From a virus, in the IMG/VR virus record IMGVR_UViG_3300035666_001431, positions 1 through 21,165 of that record: a stretch of DNA of 21,165 bases; one strand, written 5' to 3'. The notes beneath the pieces were generated by a model. The model saw only the letters and a list, made by a program, of their open reading frames with translations. It had not been told where the DNA came from and did no database searches. Below, piece by piece: positions 8,966 through 20,944 of the stretch (position 1 is its first letter; every line of letters starts with the position of its first letter). A program made the translations under genes and the position numbers.

Positions 8966-9369
8966 TAGTTACCTCGCGCTAGTGCCTCTTGATACAAGAT
9001 AGCAATTTCGCCAGTATCATCAAAAGGTAGTAGTTTGGCTAAAGTATCTGATGTCTTAATTCTAATTTGTGCTGCTCCCATAACTTCAGGACCAGGACCA
9101 GGACCCATTGCAATACCTGCAGTGATAGGTTCATCTGGACGACTTGATGGAGCATATAGCGGAGTTACTGGTTCCATTTGACTTGGAGCCATACCCATCT
9201 CGCTACGAGATGTTGGGCGCACATCTGGAGTTCTTGCTAGTGGAGCGCCTGCTTTATTAGCAGTGTTCTCAACACCTGAACCATACTCTGTAGATTGGAA
9301 TGATAAACCATCTGTTCTCTTGGAGAATTTACCAGGTCCTGATACACCTGCCATAGGCCCTCTAGCCAT
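8965..9369 (-). CDS. Small disordered structural-region protein (134 aa)
   Basis: The family is unknown. It is dominated by Gly, Pro, Ser and Met (MARGPMAGVSGPGKF; AMGPGPGPEVMG) and so is probably disordered. A short folded C-terminus follows (IRIKTSDTLAKLLPFDDTGE then IAILYQEAL). It overlaps the preceding gene by 8 nt and the giant virion gene by 1 nt, so all three should be co-translated. The C-terminal helix may be the docking part of a virion accessory protein; this is inference. Confidence 0.7.
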   Translation of the reverse strand: MARGPMAGVSGPGKFSKRTDGLSFQSTEYGSGVENTANKAGAPLARTPDVRPTSRSEMGMAPSQMEPVTPLYAPSSRPDEPITAGIAMGPGPGPEVMGAAQIRIKTSDTLAKLLPFDDTGEIAILYQEALARGN

Positions 9370-14785: not shown

Positions 14786-15352
14786 ATGAACACTACAACA
14801 TCAACAGATACGCCTAACGCCTGGATCGGCTGCCTGTCTTGCTATAACAGCGGGAGCCTATTCGGTAAGTGGATAGAGGGAACACAGGCAGCGGACTTAG
14901 AAGCGGCAGGCCTGGCTAAAGTCCAGACAGTAGGAGATTACACCGCCCCGCGCTGTGTCCGTTGCTTCGGTGATGAATTCGCTGTGTTAGATCACGAGAA
15001 TTATCACGGTTTCATTAAGGGAGAGTGCTCCACAGTAGAAGCGCAAGAAGCGGCGGAGCTAATAGAGAGCATACAGCGCGAGGGGATAGAGATCGCTGCC
15101 GCTGGTGCCTGGATATCTTTCACGGGCCAGGCGTGGAATCTAGACAGCTTCCAGGATAGCTACCAGGGAGAGCGCGACAGCTTCCAGGACTATGCAGAGG
15201 AGCTAGCGCGGGAGCTACACGGGGAGCAACTAGACGCGGCCCGCTGGCCGTTCTCTTGCATAAATTGGGAGCACGCAGCGCGGGAGCTCTCCTACGATTA
15301 CCACACCGAGGAAGCTCCAGGCGGCGGCGTGTTTATCTTTAGGAATTGCTAA
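14786..15352 (+). CDS. ArdA-like antirestriction protein with two CxxC pairs
   Basis: ArdA proteins mimic the shape and charge of B-form DNA and block type I restriction enzymes when phage DNA enters. Matches to the family are the N-terminal strand with CYNSGSLFGKWIEG (residues 19-32), the core EFAVLDHENYHGF-IKGE (64-80), and the C-terminal domain YQGERDSFQDYAEELARELHG (126-146) with INWEHAARELSYDY and GGGVFIF. Length (188 aa) and acidity fit. Unusual are two CxxC pairs, C16-C19 and C57-C60, placed just before two conserved strands, which could bind one zinc. It is first in the early operon, behind the promoter and palindrome, as expected for a protein needed at once. The leader is purine-rich (AAAGAGAG) rather than a classical ribosome site. 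Confidence 0.85.
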   Translation: MNTTTSTDTPNAWIGCLSCYNSGSLFGKWIEGTQAADLEAAGLAKVQTVGDYTAPRCVRCFGDEFAVLDHENYHGFIKGECSTVEAQEAAELIESIQREGIEIAAAGAWISFTGQAWNLDSFQDSYQGERDSFQDYAEELARELHGEQLDAARWPFSCINWEHAARELSYDYHTEEAPGGGVFIFRNC

Positions 15353-15477: not shown

Positions 15478-15489
15478 GCCTGGACTATG

Positions 15490-15553
15490 GCCCACGGTAT
15501 CGCCGTGGGCTGTGGCCTATGCCTAACGGCTAGGCCCTGGCAGATCGCCAGGG
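15490..15553 (+). other. Three consecutive stem-loops between zinc-ribbon and clamp genes
   Basis: GCCCACGG-TATCG-CCGTGGGC (15490-15510, perfect 8-bp stem) is followed by GGCCTA/TAGGCC enclosing GCC-TAAC-GGC (15514-15536). CCCTGGC-AGATC-GCCAGGG (15535-15553, perfect 7-bp stem) overlaps the last arm. No T-run follows. This is a structured mRNA segment: U-less terminator, processing site or translational control of the clamp. Confidence 0.7.
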
Positions 15554-15580: not shown

Positions 15581-16192
15581 ATGGACACTATTACAGATAA
15601 CAGCACGGCTACCATTACCGCTAATGCGGAGAGCGTAAGAGAGCTACTAGCGGGAGCGGCAACACAGGCCCACAGTAAAGAGGATCTGCCTGCAATTAAC
15701 GCTGTTAAGCTCTACAGCGAGAGCGGCAGGCTATACGCTGTCGCCACAGATCGCTACCGCCTAATTGAGGGCAGCATAGAGGGAGAGATAGCGGGAGAGC
15801 TGGCGGCTACTGTGCTCCGCCTGTCCGATATTAAGCGGATACTGGAGCTATTGAAAGAGAAGCGCCTGGACCGTATGCCTGTGCAGATTAACCGCGTGGG
15901 AGATATGGTTAGCGTGGCTGTGGCTGGCAATAGCACTACTGTGCAGGCGTGGGAATGCAGCTACCCGCCACACGCTCAACTATTCCAGGCTGGAGAGCCT
16001 GTCCCTGTGTCGGAGATAGCTTTTAACCCTGGCTTTTTTGCAGATTACTCTAAGATAGAGAAGCTGGCAGGCAGAAAGTCTAGCGCTGGCGTTAAAGTGT
16101 CTTTCTATGGAGAGAGAAAGCCTATCGGGATACACCTTAACGGTGATAAAGTATCCTGGCGGGCCTTGCTTATGCCTATGCGGACAGCTTAG
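15581..16192 (+). CDS. Shortened DNA polymerase III beta (sliding clamp)-like protein
   Basis: Sliding clamps encircle DNA and tether the polymerase. Residues 11-135 line up with domain II of bacterial DnaN: VRELLAGAATQAHSKEDLPA, the hallmark ATDRYRL at 55-61 (ATDGHRLA in E. coli), the helix LRLSDIKRILELLKEKRL, and ECSYPPH for the RFPDY region. Residues 143-203 match the end of domain III (EIAFNPGFFADYSKIEKL, then VKVSFYGERKPIGIHLN and the terminal LLMPMR). Domain I and the first half of domain III are missing. The chain is 203 aa against about 370 for DnaN, close to the two-domain T4 clamp gp45. It may be a trimeric mini-clamp or may interfere with the host clamp. It is preceded by three hairpins and a GAAAGAGAG leader. 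Confidence 0.82.
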   Translation: MDTITDNSTATITANAESVRELLAGAATQAHSKEDLPAINAVKLYSESGRLYAVATDRYRLIEGSIEGEIAGELAATVLRLSDIKRILELLKEKRLDRMPVQINRVGDMVSVAVAGNSTTVQAWECSYPPHAQLFQAGEPVPVSEIAFNPGFFADYSKIEKLAGRKSSAGVKVSFYGERKPIGIHLNGDKVSWRALLMPMRTA

Positions 16193-16210
16193 AGCTTAGA
16201 GCTGTGCTGT

Positions 16211-16238
16211 CGCGCTCTCTTTCTACGGGGAGAGCGCG
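16211..16238 (+). other. Stem-loop after the clamp gene
   Basis: A perfect 9-bp stem (CGCGCTCTC 16211-16219, GAGAGCGCG 16230-16238) with a 10-nt loop lies 18 nt past the clamp stop. It is GC-rich with no T-run after it. A partial U-less terminator or 3' stabiliser is possible. A weaker CCTGG/CCAGG hairpin follows at about 16242-16265. Confidence 0.6.
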
Positions 16239-16284
16239 GCGGCCTGGATCTAATCGGGGAGCCAGGATAGAGAAAGAGGGAGAG

Positions 16285-16893: not shown

Positions 16894-16977
16894 CTCTGGT
16901 GCTTGCTTTCCCTGCTAGATTAACCTACTCTAGTGGGGAGGGGAGGAACTAGCCTCCAATTATGAAAGAGAGAGATA

Positions 16978-17199
16978 ATGGCTAACTACACGACAATAGG
17001 AGAGCTGATAGAACACTTGAAGGGAGAGGATTTAGAAGCCCCGATTATCTATCAGTATTACTTAGCAGAACACTTTGAGATCTCGGAGGAGGTCTTTGCG
17101 GAGGTTGCTAGAGATTTTGATTCTCTAATTCCTTGCTCTGATTCATACGAGGTTATCTCTAAGGAAATCAATAGCAAGAGGGAGGAAGTAAATGCCTAG
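16978..17199 (+). CDS. Small acidic early protein (73 aa)
   Basis: The sequence begins MANYTTIGELIEHLKGEDLE and continues PIIYQYYLAEHFEISEEVFA. The pattern of a helix, a short strand and the YYLAEHF motif is, as far as I recall, seen in small proteins of other phages, without known function. It is acidic, with a single Cys. The leader is GAAAGAGAGAGATA. It starts a run of genes joined by 8-nt overlaps. The same ATGNNTAA junction pattern is present at its own start although no full gene precedes it. Confidence 0.72.
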   Translation: MANYTTIGELIEHLKGEDLEAPIIYQYYLAEHFEISEEVFAEVARDFDSLIPCSDSYEVISKEINSKREEVNA

Positions 17200-17353
17200 A
17201 CCGATAAACCCTAGCCCGTATAAACCTAACCTTGCCTCGTGTGAGGTGTGCTGGGCTGATAGCAGTGAAGGTAATGTTTATCGCTACAAGGGAACTACCT
17301 ATTGTGAGCAAGACTTAGAGAGAGCAAAGAGAGAGGGCTGGCATAATGACTAA
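17192..17353 (+). CDS. Small cysteine-motif protein (53 aa)
   Basis: The start ATG overlaps the upstream stop by exactly 8 nt (ATGCCTAG) and has GAGGAAGTAA in front. The peptide has a Pro-rich N-terminus (MPRPINPSPYKPN), then CEVCW at residues 17-21 and a third Cys at 38 (TTYCEQDLERAKREGW), giving a possible zinc knuckle with His51 as fourth ligand. Function unknown; small nucleic-acid or protein-binding module by inference. Confidence 0.75.
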   Translation: MPRPINPSPYKPNLASCEVCWADSSEGNVYRYKGTTYCEQDLERAKREGWHND

Positions 17354-17498
17354 CTTTGATGAACTACTAAAACATAAGGGTCATAAGATAGTAATTGCTA
17401 CCTATGGGCAGGAGAGCGATCCGCTCAATGTAGCTATTGAGTGTGAAACCTGCTATGAAGTATTAACCGATTATGAAAGAGAGGAAAGTAATGTCTGA
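17346..17498 (+). CDS. Small CxxC protein (50 aa)
   Basis: It overlaps the upstream stop by 8 nt (ATGACTAA). The sequence LLKHKGHKIVIATYG, then NVAIECETCYEVLTDYE, resembles a small domain I associate with actinophages: HxGH, a strand, then ECxxCxxVL. One CxxC pair (residues 33-36) and two nearby His (10 and 13) could coordinate a metal. Function unknown. Confidence 0.78.
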   Translation: MTNFDELLKHKGHKIVIATYGQESDPLNVAIECETCYEVLTDYEREESNV

Positions 17499-17637
17499 TG
17501 ACGCAATTAGCTGGGGAGAACTAGCAGAACTAACCCACGCTACACAGGTGGAGAGGTTTGGTTGGTGTATCTGCGAGGATACTGACGGAGAAGGGCAACT
17601 AGCAGATGACTGCCCTAGAGAGGAAGCTAATGTCTGA
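17491..17637 (+). CDS. Small cysteine-containing acidic protein (48 aa)
   Basis: It overlaps the previous stop by 8 nt (ATGTCTGA), after the ribosome site GAGAGGAAAGTA. The peptide has a helical N-terminus (ISWGELAELTHATQVERFG), then WCICEDTDGEGQLADDCP with three Cys, and is strongly acidic. The family is unknown. Its last codons and next junction are nearly identical in DNA to the preceding junction (GAGGAAGCTAATGTCTGA against GAGGAAAGTAATGTCTGA). Confidence 0.7.
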   Translation: MSDDAISWGELAELTHATQVERFGWCICEDTDGEGQLADDCPREEANV

Positions 17638-17821
17638 CTACGAGTTTGTAAAGGGCTACGGAGATAACATCACTTGCGATAACTGCTGGGATAGTGTTGA
17701 TGAGTGGTGGTCTGCTGACCACGCTATCTGTAATAAATGCCATACTAAATACCAGCAAGAACTAACACCTGAGAAAACTATAAACGACATAAAGAGAGAG
17801 CAGGAGGAGAGTAATGAATAA
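17630..17821 (+). CDS. Small two-CxxC zinc-ribbon protein (63 aa)
   Basis: The ATG at 17630 is chosen because it repeats the 8-nt overlap (ATGTCTGA) and follows GAGAGGAAGCTA. An in-frame start 24 nt earlier lacks such a site. CDNCW (residues 17-21) and CNKCH (37-41), with Trp-rich spacing (DSVDEWWSADHAI), make a treble-clef or ribbon-type zinc site. The tail is a charged helix (PEKTINDIKREQEESNE). Likely nucleic-acid or protein binding, inferred from the zinc site. Confidence 0.8.
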   Translation: MSDYEFVKGYGDNITCDNCWDSVDEWWSADHAICNKCHTKYQQELTPEKTINDIKREQEESNE

Positions 17822-17981
17822 AGAATACTATCAAGCTAAGGCAGACCTATGCCGAGATCTATTTATCAAGCAGGTGGGAGAGGGAGATAGCAAGGAGGCA
17901 TCTCATAATTTAATTCGTATGGTTAATGCCTTAAATCAAATCAACTTAATCAACTACAAGGAGGAGAAGGGTAATGAGTAA
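17814..17981 (+). CDS. Small helical early protein (55 aa)
   Basis: It overlaps the upstream stop by 8 nt (ATGAATAA) with GCAGGAGGAGAGTA in front, a strong site. It is predicted to be all helix (YYQAKADLCRDLFIKQVGEG, then NLIRMVNALNQINLINYKEE). No known motif is visible. It is part of the same coupled array as its neighbours. Function unknown. Confidence 0.72.
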   Translation: MNKEYYQAKADLCRDLFIKQVGEGDSKEASHNLIRMVNALNQINLINYKEEKGNE

Positions 17982-18111
17982 AACATACACAATAACGCTA
18001 GAGCTGGAGTGTGATACCGATCCGAGTGAGTGGGTGTATCCTGAAGTATTAGTGATAGACGAGCCTTACAGAGTAAAGAAAGTGGAGGAGAACAAGTATG
18101 AAGCTAACTAA
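17974..18111 (+). CDS. Small acidic beta-rich protein (45 aa)
   Basis: This is the sixth successive gene with an 8-nt overlap (ATGAGTAA), preceded by AAGGAGGAGAAGGGTA. The sequence MSKTYTITLELECDTDPSEW, then VYPEVLVIDEPYRVKKVEEN, suggests a small antiparallel sheet. Function unknown. Its 3' end overlaps the next gene by 14 nt. Confidence 0.72.
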   Translation: MSKTYTITLELECDTDPSEWVYPEVLVIDEPYRVKKVEENKYEAN

Positions 18112-18319
18112 CTTCTATGAAGTGGCAGATCGCAAGGGAGATACTGCTTGGGGAGGAGCGAGCGCGATAGATGCTATTGAGTGGTTTAGGCGAGGCTTAG
18201 ATAACTCTATCTATGTATCAGTATGGAACGAGGAGGATATTGAGGAGCCTAAGTTAGTCATTGATAAGATAGATATAACTAAGATAATCTTGGCTACAAT
18301 AGTAGGGGAGATGGCGTGA
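18098..18319 (+). CDS. Hypothetical early protein (73 aa)
   Basis: It starts 14 nt inside the preceding gene, after GTGGAGGAGAACAAGT (good ribosome site). The sequence NFYEVADRKGDTAWGGASAI, then DAIEWFRRGLDNSIYVSVWN, combines a short sheet and a helix. EWFRR with a following SVW strand is a pattern I recall from actinophage proteins of unknown function. The C-terminus ends in a moderately hydrophobic strand (ITKIILATIVGEMA). Its stop forms a GTGA overlap with the next small gene. Confidence 0.72.
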   Translation: MKLTNFYEVADRKGDTAWGGASAIDAIEWFRRGLDNSIYVSVWNEEDIEEPKLVIDKIDITKIILATIVGEMA

Positions 18320-18399: not shown

Positions 18400-18748
18400 T
18401 GCGGAGCGGAGAGAGAAGTTTAGACAAGGCAAACTTGAGATAAACGAGAAGCATAGGAAGCGGAAAGAGAAGGCTGAGAGGCGAGCAGTATGGCTACGCA
18501 ACTATCAGCGAGCAAGAGGGCGAGCCCTTACTAAGCTAGCCCAGCAGTATCCCGACCAATACAAGGAAATACTTGAGCAGGAGAGGTTATCTGATGAGGC
18601 TAATGGCAAGGCGTGGCTGGACATTACTGGCGCTACCGATAATAGTGCTGGTGTTCTTACTAACGCAGATGGATACAACAACACACTTAGATCCGAGCAA
18701 GCAGACAGAGATGAGCAGAACGAAGGCTACTTGGGAGGAGAAAAATGA
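18386..18748 (+). CDS. Basic helical protein (120 aa) overlapping the lysozyme gene
   Basis: The first 55 residues are highly charged, Lys/Arg/Glu-rich helix (RREKFRQGKLEINEKHRKRK). Then comes RNYQRARGRALTKLAQQYPD and a Tyr-Lys-Glu helix, a motif I associate with small actinophage proteins. The last third (GATDNSAGVLTNADGYNNTL) is polar and probably disordered. It is also the part whose DNA encodes the membrane anchor of the lysozyme in another frame. It starts 14 nt inside the membrane micropeptide gene behind GGGAGGATAAGCTCA. DNA binding is possible from charge. The stop TGA sits after GGGAGGAGAAAAA, an odd position for a ribosome site. Confidence 0.72.
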   Translation: MKTISAERREKFRQGKLEINEKHRKRKEKAERRAVWLRNYQRARGRALTKLAQQYPDQYKEILEQERLSDEANGKAWLDITGATDNSAGVLTNADGYNNTLRSEQADRDEQNEGYLGGEK

Positions 18749-19019
18749 GAACAGAAAACTGGCAAAGCAATACGCCTGGGTTGCGTTTGGTTGGAGAGGG
18801 AGAGAGTGGGAGTGCCTCAAGTCCTTATGGACCAATGAGAGCAGATTTGACCACTACGCACAGAACCCAGCTTCTAGTGCTTTCGGAATTGCTCAGCTCC
18901 TTGGAGAAAGAAGTAGAGATCCTGCACTCCAAGTATTGCGAGGCTTACGTTATATTGATAGACGTTATGGAACGCCTTGCAAGGCTTACAAGTTCTCTCT
19001 TACCCACCGACACTACTAA
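18594..19019 (+). CDS. Membrane-anchored lysozyme/lytic transglycosylase-like enzyme
   Basis: It is predicted to cleave peptidoglycan for lysis or DNA entry. The catalytic domain (residues 58-141) has WECLKSLWTNESRFDHYAQN with probable catalytic Glu82, SSAFGIAQLLGE, and GLRYIDRRYGTPCKAYKF. The pattern and cysteines C74 and C129 match the aggregation-promoting-factor-like lysozyme fold of actinobacteria. The ATG at 18594 is chosen because AGGAGAGG lies 7 nt upstream. It adds a basic N-terminus and a hydrophobic helix (LLALPIIVLVFLLT, about 9-24), a signal-anchor. That part overlaps the 120-aa gene by 155 nt in another frame. The ATG at 18711 would give a soluble form without the anchor but has a weak site. 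A rho-independent terminator follows. Confidence 0.82.
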   Translation: MRLMARRGWTLLALPIIVLVFLLTQMDTTTHLDPSKQTEMSRTKATWEEKNENRKLAKQYAWVAFGWRGREWECLKSLWTNESRFDHYAQNPASSAFGIAQLLGERSRDPALQVLRGLRYIDRRYGTPCKAYKFSLTHRHY

Positions 19020-19033
19020 AGAATAGAATAGAA

Positions 19034-20270: not shown

Positions 20271-20944
20271 GATGCCTCTCCAAGTATTCTTTCTTGAGCA
20301 ATACTGTGATACTCAGCGTCCATTTCAATGCCTATAAAATTACGATTCAATAATTTGCAAGCTAATCCTGTTGTGCCTGAACCCATAAATGGATCTACTA
20401 TTGTGTAATCAGGTGGCAAGATACCAATAATTCTTTTCATAACTTCTAAAGGCATTTGACAAGGATGCTTTGTTTTTTCTTTTGATACATTTTTTATCTG
20501 GTTAATCTCCCACCAGTCATAGAGCCTTGCTGTTTTACCATCAGCAATTCTTTGCATAATTCTTTTGTCTGTTGGATTTTTATATGGCTGTCCATATTGT
20601 TTGAAGTCTGGCTTGATACCAAAGAATGCTATATCCCTATGTTGCTTTGCTGTGTTGGAGTTATACACCCAGCTAACAACTTTATCAGGAAACTCGCCAA
20701 CTTGAAATGCTATCTTGTATATCTCTTCTGGATAATGTATAACAACAAACGGAGAGTATTGAAATATAGAAGCAAGCATCTCATAGTATTCCTGCGAACC
20801 CATATTGTCTTTGTAATTGTTATAGTGATACCCAATATTGAAAGGCGGGTCAGTCACAATTACAAACTTTTTTTCTTTTACATTTATCTTAGGTAACTCC
20901 TCTGAACAGTCACCTAAAATTAGTTCACTTTTAATATTAGTCAT
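20267..20944 (-). CDS. DNA methyltransferase, beta-class N6-adenine/N4-cytosine type
   Basis: It transfers a methyl group from S-adenosylmethionine to an exocyclic amino group in DNA. The catalytic motif IV, TDPPF (residues 31-35), precedes the AdoMet-binding motif I, DPFMGSGTTG (184-193), followed by NFIGIEMD. This order defines the beta class. DPPF most often means adenine N6, but cytosine N4 cannot be excluded. The protein is 225 aa, short, with little room for a large target-recognition domain. No restriction enzyme is adjacent, so it looks like a solitary protective or regulatory enzyme, complementing the ArdA-like protein. It is AT-richer than the early genes, which hints at separate acquisition. 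It overlaps the Nmad1-like gene by 8 nt. Confidence 0.93.
   Translation of the reverse strand: MTNIKSELILGDCSEELPKINVKEKKFVIVTDPPFNIGYHYNNYKDNMGSQEYYEMLASIFQYSPFVVIHYPEEIYKIAFQVGEFPDKVVSWVYNSNTAKQHRDIAFFGIKPDFKQYGQPYKNPTDKRIMQRIADGKTARLYDWWEINQIKNVSKEKTKHPCQMPLEVMKRIIGILPPDYTIVDPFMGSGTTGLACKLLNRNFIGIEMDAEYHSIAQERILGEAS

Follow-up and report, generated by a model that had tools for sequence, protein, structure and literature searches.

Whole-gene turnover at 8-nt start/stop joints in a probable hypervariable operon of small phage genes

A run of small genes joined by exactly 8-nt start/stop overlaps lies in the window (the whole virus record analysed, 21,165 bases in length), and it probably belongs to a hypervariable operon in which small genes are translationally coupled and units recombine at the joints, in register near the start codon. 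In the window and its relatives, the characteristic anatomy of the joints is accompanied by gene turnover at all six joints of the run, by chimeric joints formed in register, and by a conserved gene order.

Source and comparison set

The large terminase of the window is ~46% identical to that of an unannotated Caudovirales record and ~44% identical to those of Streptomyces phages such as Zeigle, and the window and its relatives form a podovirus-like phage group. Relatives were collected by IMG/VR searches using a sliding-clamp-like gene on the left flank and the gene at 17814 (marker gene E), which gave more than 100 loci, and the arrays were compared in the 85 loci around the marker gene (17814-17981). 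Genes were called with our own simple scorer, in which overlaps earn no bonus, and the 1,435 proteins around the marker gene in these 85 loci were grouped into 267 families, one of which (family 0) was over-merged by single linkage, so that counts involving it are rough. The relatives are all metagenomic contigs, and comparisons among them lack phylogenetic independence. The marker gene and the right-flank gene had no match among 50,697 records of isolated phages, and we found no relatives of the marker gene in GTDB genomes, which therefore give no connection to a host or a prophage. Pfam and PHROGs gave nothing firm for the small genes of the array. Scanning IMG/VR with the pattern GAGGAAGCTAATGTCTRA returned 19 stretches, ~10 of them in contigs already assigned to the phage group, which is suggestive.

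Anatomy of the run

The earlier note had described six consecutive 8-nt overlaps, and all of them are present at the starts 17192, 17346, 17491, 17630, 17814 and 17974 (Table 1). Nothing interrupts this run: to its left is the gap at 16894-16977, which contains a hairpin and is followed by the gene at 16978, and to its right is the overlap at 18098, which is 14 nt long; the overlapping joints before the run measure 4 and 17 nt. The genes that start at the six joints have, in order, 53, 50, 48, 63, 55 and 45 codons. A GAGGA-type ribosome site, previously said to stand before nearly all of these starts, was found ahead of five of the six joints and is missing at 17346, which has only AGAGAGGG. 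The near-identical pair of joints was also recovered, with both ATGTCTGA joints matching at 22 of 26 bases. Across the phage group, the consensus of 184 non-redundant 8-nt joints, representing 143 family pairs, is AGGAGGaaGntA-ATGncTAA. The start/stop overlap and an SD inside the upstream gene together give the joints the anatomy of translational coupling, and we infer that coupling of the array genes is functional.

Table 1 Features of the array and their variation among relatives
Feature	Positions	Strand	Description	Relatives
Left-flank gene	15581..16192	+	Sliding-clamp-like	Conserved
Hairpin leader	16900..16977	+	Directly 5' of the run; leader model 67.7 bits (training-set member)	Examples at L121:887-976, L119:7115-7191, L033:3003-3095
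First gene of the 8-nt-joined run	16978..17199	+	73 aa, MANYTTIGELIEHLKG..; open reading frame and joint	
Joint 1 (17192)	17182..17199	+	SD GAGGAAG + AATGCCTAG; overlap 17192-17199, ATGCCTAG	Two other genes inserted in L015
Small gene (family 30)	17192..17353	+	53 aa, contains Cys	
Joint 2 (17346)	17346..17353	+	ATGACTAA; SD weak	Gene 17346-17498 absent in L002, L016, L017; deletion chimera in L016
Small gene	17346..17498	+	50 aa	Missing joint-to-joint in L002, L016, L017
Joint 3 (17491)	17481..17498	+	GAGGAAAGTAATGTCTGA; overlap ATGTCTGA	A different gene follows gene 17346 in L020
Small gene	17491..17637	+	48 aa	Absent in L015, replaced in L020
Joint 4 (17630)	17620..17637	+	GAGGAAGCTAATGTCTGA; overlap ATGTCTGA	L015 passes directly from the 17192 gene to the 17630 gene
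Small gene	17630..17821	+	63 aa, CxxC pairs; zinc-ribbon-like at weak score	
Joint 5 (17814)	17803..17821	+	SD AGGAGGAG + TAATGAATAA; overlap ATGAATAA	L002 and L015 carry different inserted genes
Marker gene E	17814..17981	+	55 aa, MNKEYYQAKADLC..	In 84 of 85 loci; replaced in L003
Joint 6 (17974)	17959..17981	+	SD AGGAGGAG + GGGTAATGAGTAA; overlap ATGAGTAA	Another gene in L002; the 18098 gene follows directly in L015
Small gene	17974..18111	+	45 aa	Replaced or missing in many relatives
Right-flank gene	18098..18319	+	MKLTNFYEV..; 14-nt overlap	Conserved

In this anatomy, the ribosome-binding site of a gene is encoded by the last codons of the gene before it, and ATGNNTRR, its own first 8 bases, gives that previous gene its stop, so that in effect a unit begins at a start codon and ends just short of the following one. 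In the mechanism that we propose, recombination joins two such junctions in register near the start codon, by which a whole unit is gained, lost or replaced; joining in register at this point would leave the product genes intact and coupled.

Gene turnover among relatives

It had been suggested from the window that small genes are exchanged or inserted as units at the joints, and the relatives bear this out, with whole-gene gain, loss and replacement occurring exactly there while the neighbouring genes stay intact. The turnover preserves the ribosome site and usually the overlap as well. Every one of the six window joints shows gain, loss or replacement in some relative, including the last one (17974), where several relatives skip to the 18098 gene or insert other genes. 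The 85 arrays contain 79 distinct family strings; marker gene E has 28 different left-neighbour families, and the gene at 16978 (family 10) has 7 different left partners. We identified 62 events with anchors at least 90% identical, of which 32 are clean gains or losses, and the overlap lengths of the joints in these clean events were 8/8/8 in 12 and 4/4/4 in 7.

Free shuffling of cassettes, by contrast, is contradicted by gene order, as co-occurring families kept to one order in 99% of observations, with both orders seen for only 39 of 1,484 family pairs. The earlier note had set against its own idea the case of relatives with the same genes in fixed order and drifting overlap lengths. For gene content that case does not apply. 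Gene order is conserved, and overlap length drifts at some homologous joints, being mixed at 15 family pairs. The array is thus a fixed-order operon with gene presence and absence.

Breakpoints and register at the joints

Where arrays have the same left gene and a different right gene, identity is ~95% through the SD to position -8, fades from -7 to -2, and is at background from +8. Where the right gene is the same and the left gene differs, the upstream sequences are close to background, and from the second codon onward identity mostly reaches 93-100%. These profiles place the ribosome site with the upstream gene and make the natural unit the stretch between one start codon and the following one. 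In the 32 clean gains and losses, the joint of the short form is a chimera of the two joints of the long form, with the best crossover interval lying within -18 to +12 relative to the start and usually being much narrower. Two elements of a boundary-sequence model are found here: a short conserved sequence common to many boundaries (the 184 joints of 143 family pairs) and a switch of sequence at the boundary (the identity profiles and the 32 clean events).

The main competing explanation is that selection alone produced these patterns, with crossovers falling anywhere and only those survivors retained whose genes are intact and tightly coupled, so that the joints are not recombination sites. 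Since hardly any intergenic DNA lies in the array, such survivors would necessarily break at the joints, and each phase favours its shortest overlaps. Illegitimate recombination plus selection is also the standing alternative for phage mosaicism in general (PMC3233612). Similarity among the joints points the same way, as event joints match at ~14.5 of 23 positions (the mean of joints in the 8/8/8 events) and unrelated joints at ~14.3 of 23 (the sum of the background profile), which lends no support to the earlier idea that the joint acts as a connector in recombination. We also considered whether events choose the most similar joints and found no support, as their similarity equals background.

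Register is the observation that sits less easily with selection alone. Exact register was kept in 30 of the 32 clean events (our own count, with at least 36 of 43 positions matched ungapped) and in 146 of 164 unique +1-phase family triples, against an expected fraction of 0.20 from redrawn population SD spacings. These spacings vary widely, and unguided joining with any workable spacing should have altered spacing and phase more often. Exact register thus favours an alignment of joints during recombination. Selection on spacing may contribute, and because it could do so and the comparisons are non-independent, the register counts fall short of proof. Selection alone remains the serious rival, a plausible account though somewhat less likely than not. 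A further step, which we hold only tentatively, is that the joint of SD, start and stop acts as a phase-keeping connector, with recombination aligning any two joints so that genes plug in while coupling and frame are kept; the short repeated SD-ATG blocks would then guide recombination.

Searches of 11 related contigs with three Pfam models (RecT, RecA and PDDEXK_1) gave zero matches. In one relative, a RecE/Cas4-like exonuclease and a RusA-like resolvase were matched.

Geometry and frequency of 8-nt overlaps

When the start is ATG or GTG and lies in the +1 phase, the possible overlaps with the upstream gene are 8, 11, 14 or more nt, overlaps of 2 and 5 being impossible; when it lies in the other phase, they are 1, 4 or 7. 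With two conserved flank families excluded, the overlaps counted in the phage group were 8 (184), 11 (5), 14 (24) and 17 (7) in the +1 phase and 4 (201), 1 (140) and 7 (2) in the other. Both phases thus sit at the minimum, and the 8-nt overlap is explained as the +1-phase counterpart of the familiar 4, which is the modal overlap across prokaryotes (PMC2174442). Joints of 4 and 1 nt within these arrays show the same behaviour, and the view that 8-nt overlaps are unexpected under ordinary coupling does not hold up; selection for short overlaps probably maintains the 8 nt. The ending of the upstream genes in AAT, GNN and stop was seen as described, and most of it is forced by geometry, since an ATG whose A is the second base of a codon of the upstream gene leaves that gene to end in nAT-Gnn-stop; what is extra is only the A at -1, present in 92% of the 184 joints.

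The run nevertheless exceeds sequence chance. Among starts without an overlapping gene before them, ~14% have a stop at the first +1-phase position, and six of six such stops would arise by chance at ~8e-6. Given the local 8-nt preference of the phage group, a run of at least 6 has P ~0.02 per array, and runs of 6 or 8 such joints also occur in six relatives. Over the five positions that lead to the marker gene, 8-nt joints account for about half of the junctions; upstream of this zone 4- and 1-nt joints dominate and do the same job. Among homologous joints seen repeatedly, 21 family pairs were always 8 nt and 15 of 36 were mixed. An unused ATGNNTRR stop was found in 30% of genes after 1-nt joints versus 14% after gaps (p=6e-4), which is consistent with past use in 8-nt joints. 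The idea that each unit has stops in the two other frames as well was unsupported, as TGA follows the start in 30-34% of 8-nt joints, less than the 51-60% found after 1-nt joints or gaps. On the minus strand of the window, two more 8-nt overlaps of the same AAT-GNN-stop form (9362-9369 and 20937-20944) sit between genes of the structural region and of the methyltransferase region.

A stable operon with a plain lineage-specific taste for 8-nt coupling overlaps, and no special exchange, could account for 8-nt overlaps being found outside the array and for 8 being the minimal +1-phase overlap. Outside the arrays, however, only 3 of 26 overlaps are 8 nt (inside versus outside over all zones, p=0.07 only), and the annotated genome of Zeigle has 1 among ~22 short overlaps. 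Stability is further contradicted by the turnover of genes at every window joint, by the 79 family strings in 85 arrays and by the 62 gain, loss or replacement events, and we consider this explanation unlikely.

Tandem duplication and divergence would make the joints alike as copies, in keeping with their shared consensus and with the pair that matches at 22 of 26 bases. Adjacent proteins belong to different families, however, and the upstream gene bodies show no similarity to one another. Because a family is present twice in only 7 of 85 arrays (the merged family excluded), and always the same family, we regard this origin as very unlikely. Still less probable is an artefact of gene calling or metagenome assembly, as, although the open reading frames are small, the caller home-made and the contigs unfinished, overlaps get no bonus from the caller, the frames are conserved as protein families across contigs, and the same gene absence recurs in three loci (L002, L016 and L017) that each have a different metagenome number.

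Comparison with known systems

It has long been asked whether short boundary sequences target phage mosaicism or whether it arises at random and is then filtered by selection; PMC3233612 and PMC3029335 present the debate as one of conserved boundary sequences against illegitimate recombination followed by selection. The lambdoid linkers share with the array short conserved boundary sequences between which unrelated genes are exchanged. The array differs from them in that its boundary is itself coding on both sides (a ribosome site and a start/stop overlap), keeps phase, and recurs at nearly every gene. In the mycobacteriophages Island3 and Brujita, a single-gene insertion or deletion between short repeated 3' gene ends was attributed to short-repeat recombination; it involves a single 18-codon repeat and was reported as the first mycobacteriophage example (PMC3029335). 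The array, in contrast, has 32 clean cases with short SD-ATG blocks.

The start-associated sequence (SAS) of cluster K mycobacteriophages is an AGGAG-containing repeat that lies just ahead of many non-structural genes unrelated to one another, a few bases from their starts (PMC3203893), with a 13-bp sequence, GGGATAGGAGCCC, for which ribosome pairing alone is considered an insufficient explanation. The array joints do not match GGGATAGGAGCCC; their consensus is AGGAGGaaGntAATG, and they consist of a plain SD, a spacer and the overlap. The passages on the SAS consulted in PMC3203893 describe no gene turnover at these elements. In T4-type phages, as cited in PMC4503421, genes are shuffled between phages at repeated regulatory elements, the PeSL, which are promoter/stem-loop motifs. 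The 8-nt joints of the array contain no intergenic DNA and lack the combination of promoter and stem-loop, and the hairpin leaders of the array may be the nearer parallel to the PeSL.

The array may also be compared with the ninR region of lambda. The ninR region is a chain of small coupled genes with 4-nt ATGA start/stop overlaps that is mosaic among relatives, whereas the array has three overlap classes arranged in zones. The array is best called boundary-sequence mosaicism in which the boundary is a coding overlap with a ribosome site, which is a new variation. With dozens of recent clean gains and losses at near-identical coding joints, both models of mosaicism become testable in numbers. 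The array also illustrates how a virus can keep fast-changing small accessory proteins in one coupled translation unit, and if the joints do act as connectors, a boundary sequence at the coding level would render this small-gene operon modular.

Hairpin leader and neighbouring genes

Hairpin leaders fill gaps of 75-105 nt in the arrays directly before genes, often immediately preceding a run of 8-nt joints. The leader hairpin, which is long and covarying, has 13 consensus pairs in 21 sequences, of which 9 show double-sided changes and 0 are broken. Searches with the hairpin model found 0-3 copies per related genome and zero in phage Zeigle, and a search of Rfam with the leader matched no family. 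Hairpin look-alikes occur in the window at 16202-16247 and 15481-15519. The 3' end of the leader (16956-16972) and the tail of the 17346 gene (17467-17483) have 16 of 17 bases in common, which is perhaps a trace of past exchange between leader and joint.

The protein of the left-flank gene (15581-16192) hit the beta-clamp model PF02767 below cut-off (E=0.004) and a PHROG processivity-factor family (E=9e-7); it also hit a PHROG family labelled RusA-like resolvase (E=2e-16), a label that may be a misannotation. An ArdA-type antirestriction gene (14786-15352; PF07275, E=8e-18) adjoins the array, and an ArdA gene is also found in Zeigle. Beyond the right flank, a frame recognised by eye as lysozyme/transglycosylase-like (18573-19019, the frame with ESRFDHYAQNPASSAFGIAQLL) overlaps a second frame at 18745-19026. 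A second open frame of ~90-117 codons inside the lysozyme-like gene was present in 24 of 24 distinct sequences, with the third frame closed, and the two frames are a candidate overlapping gene pair.
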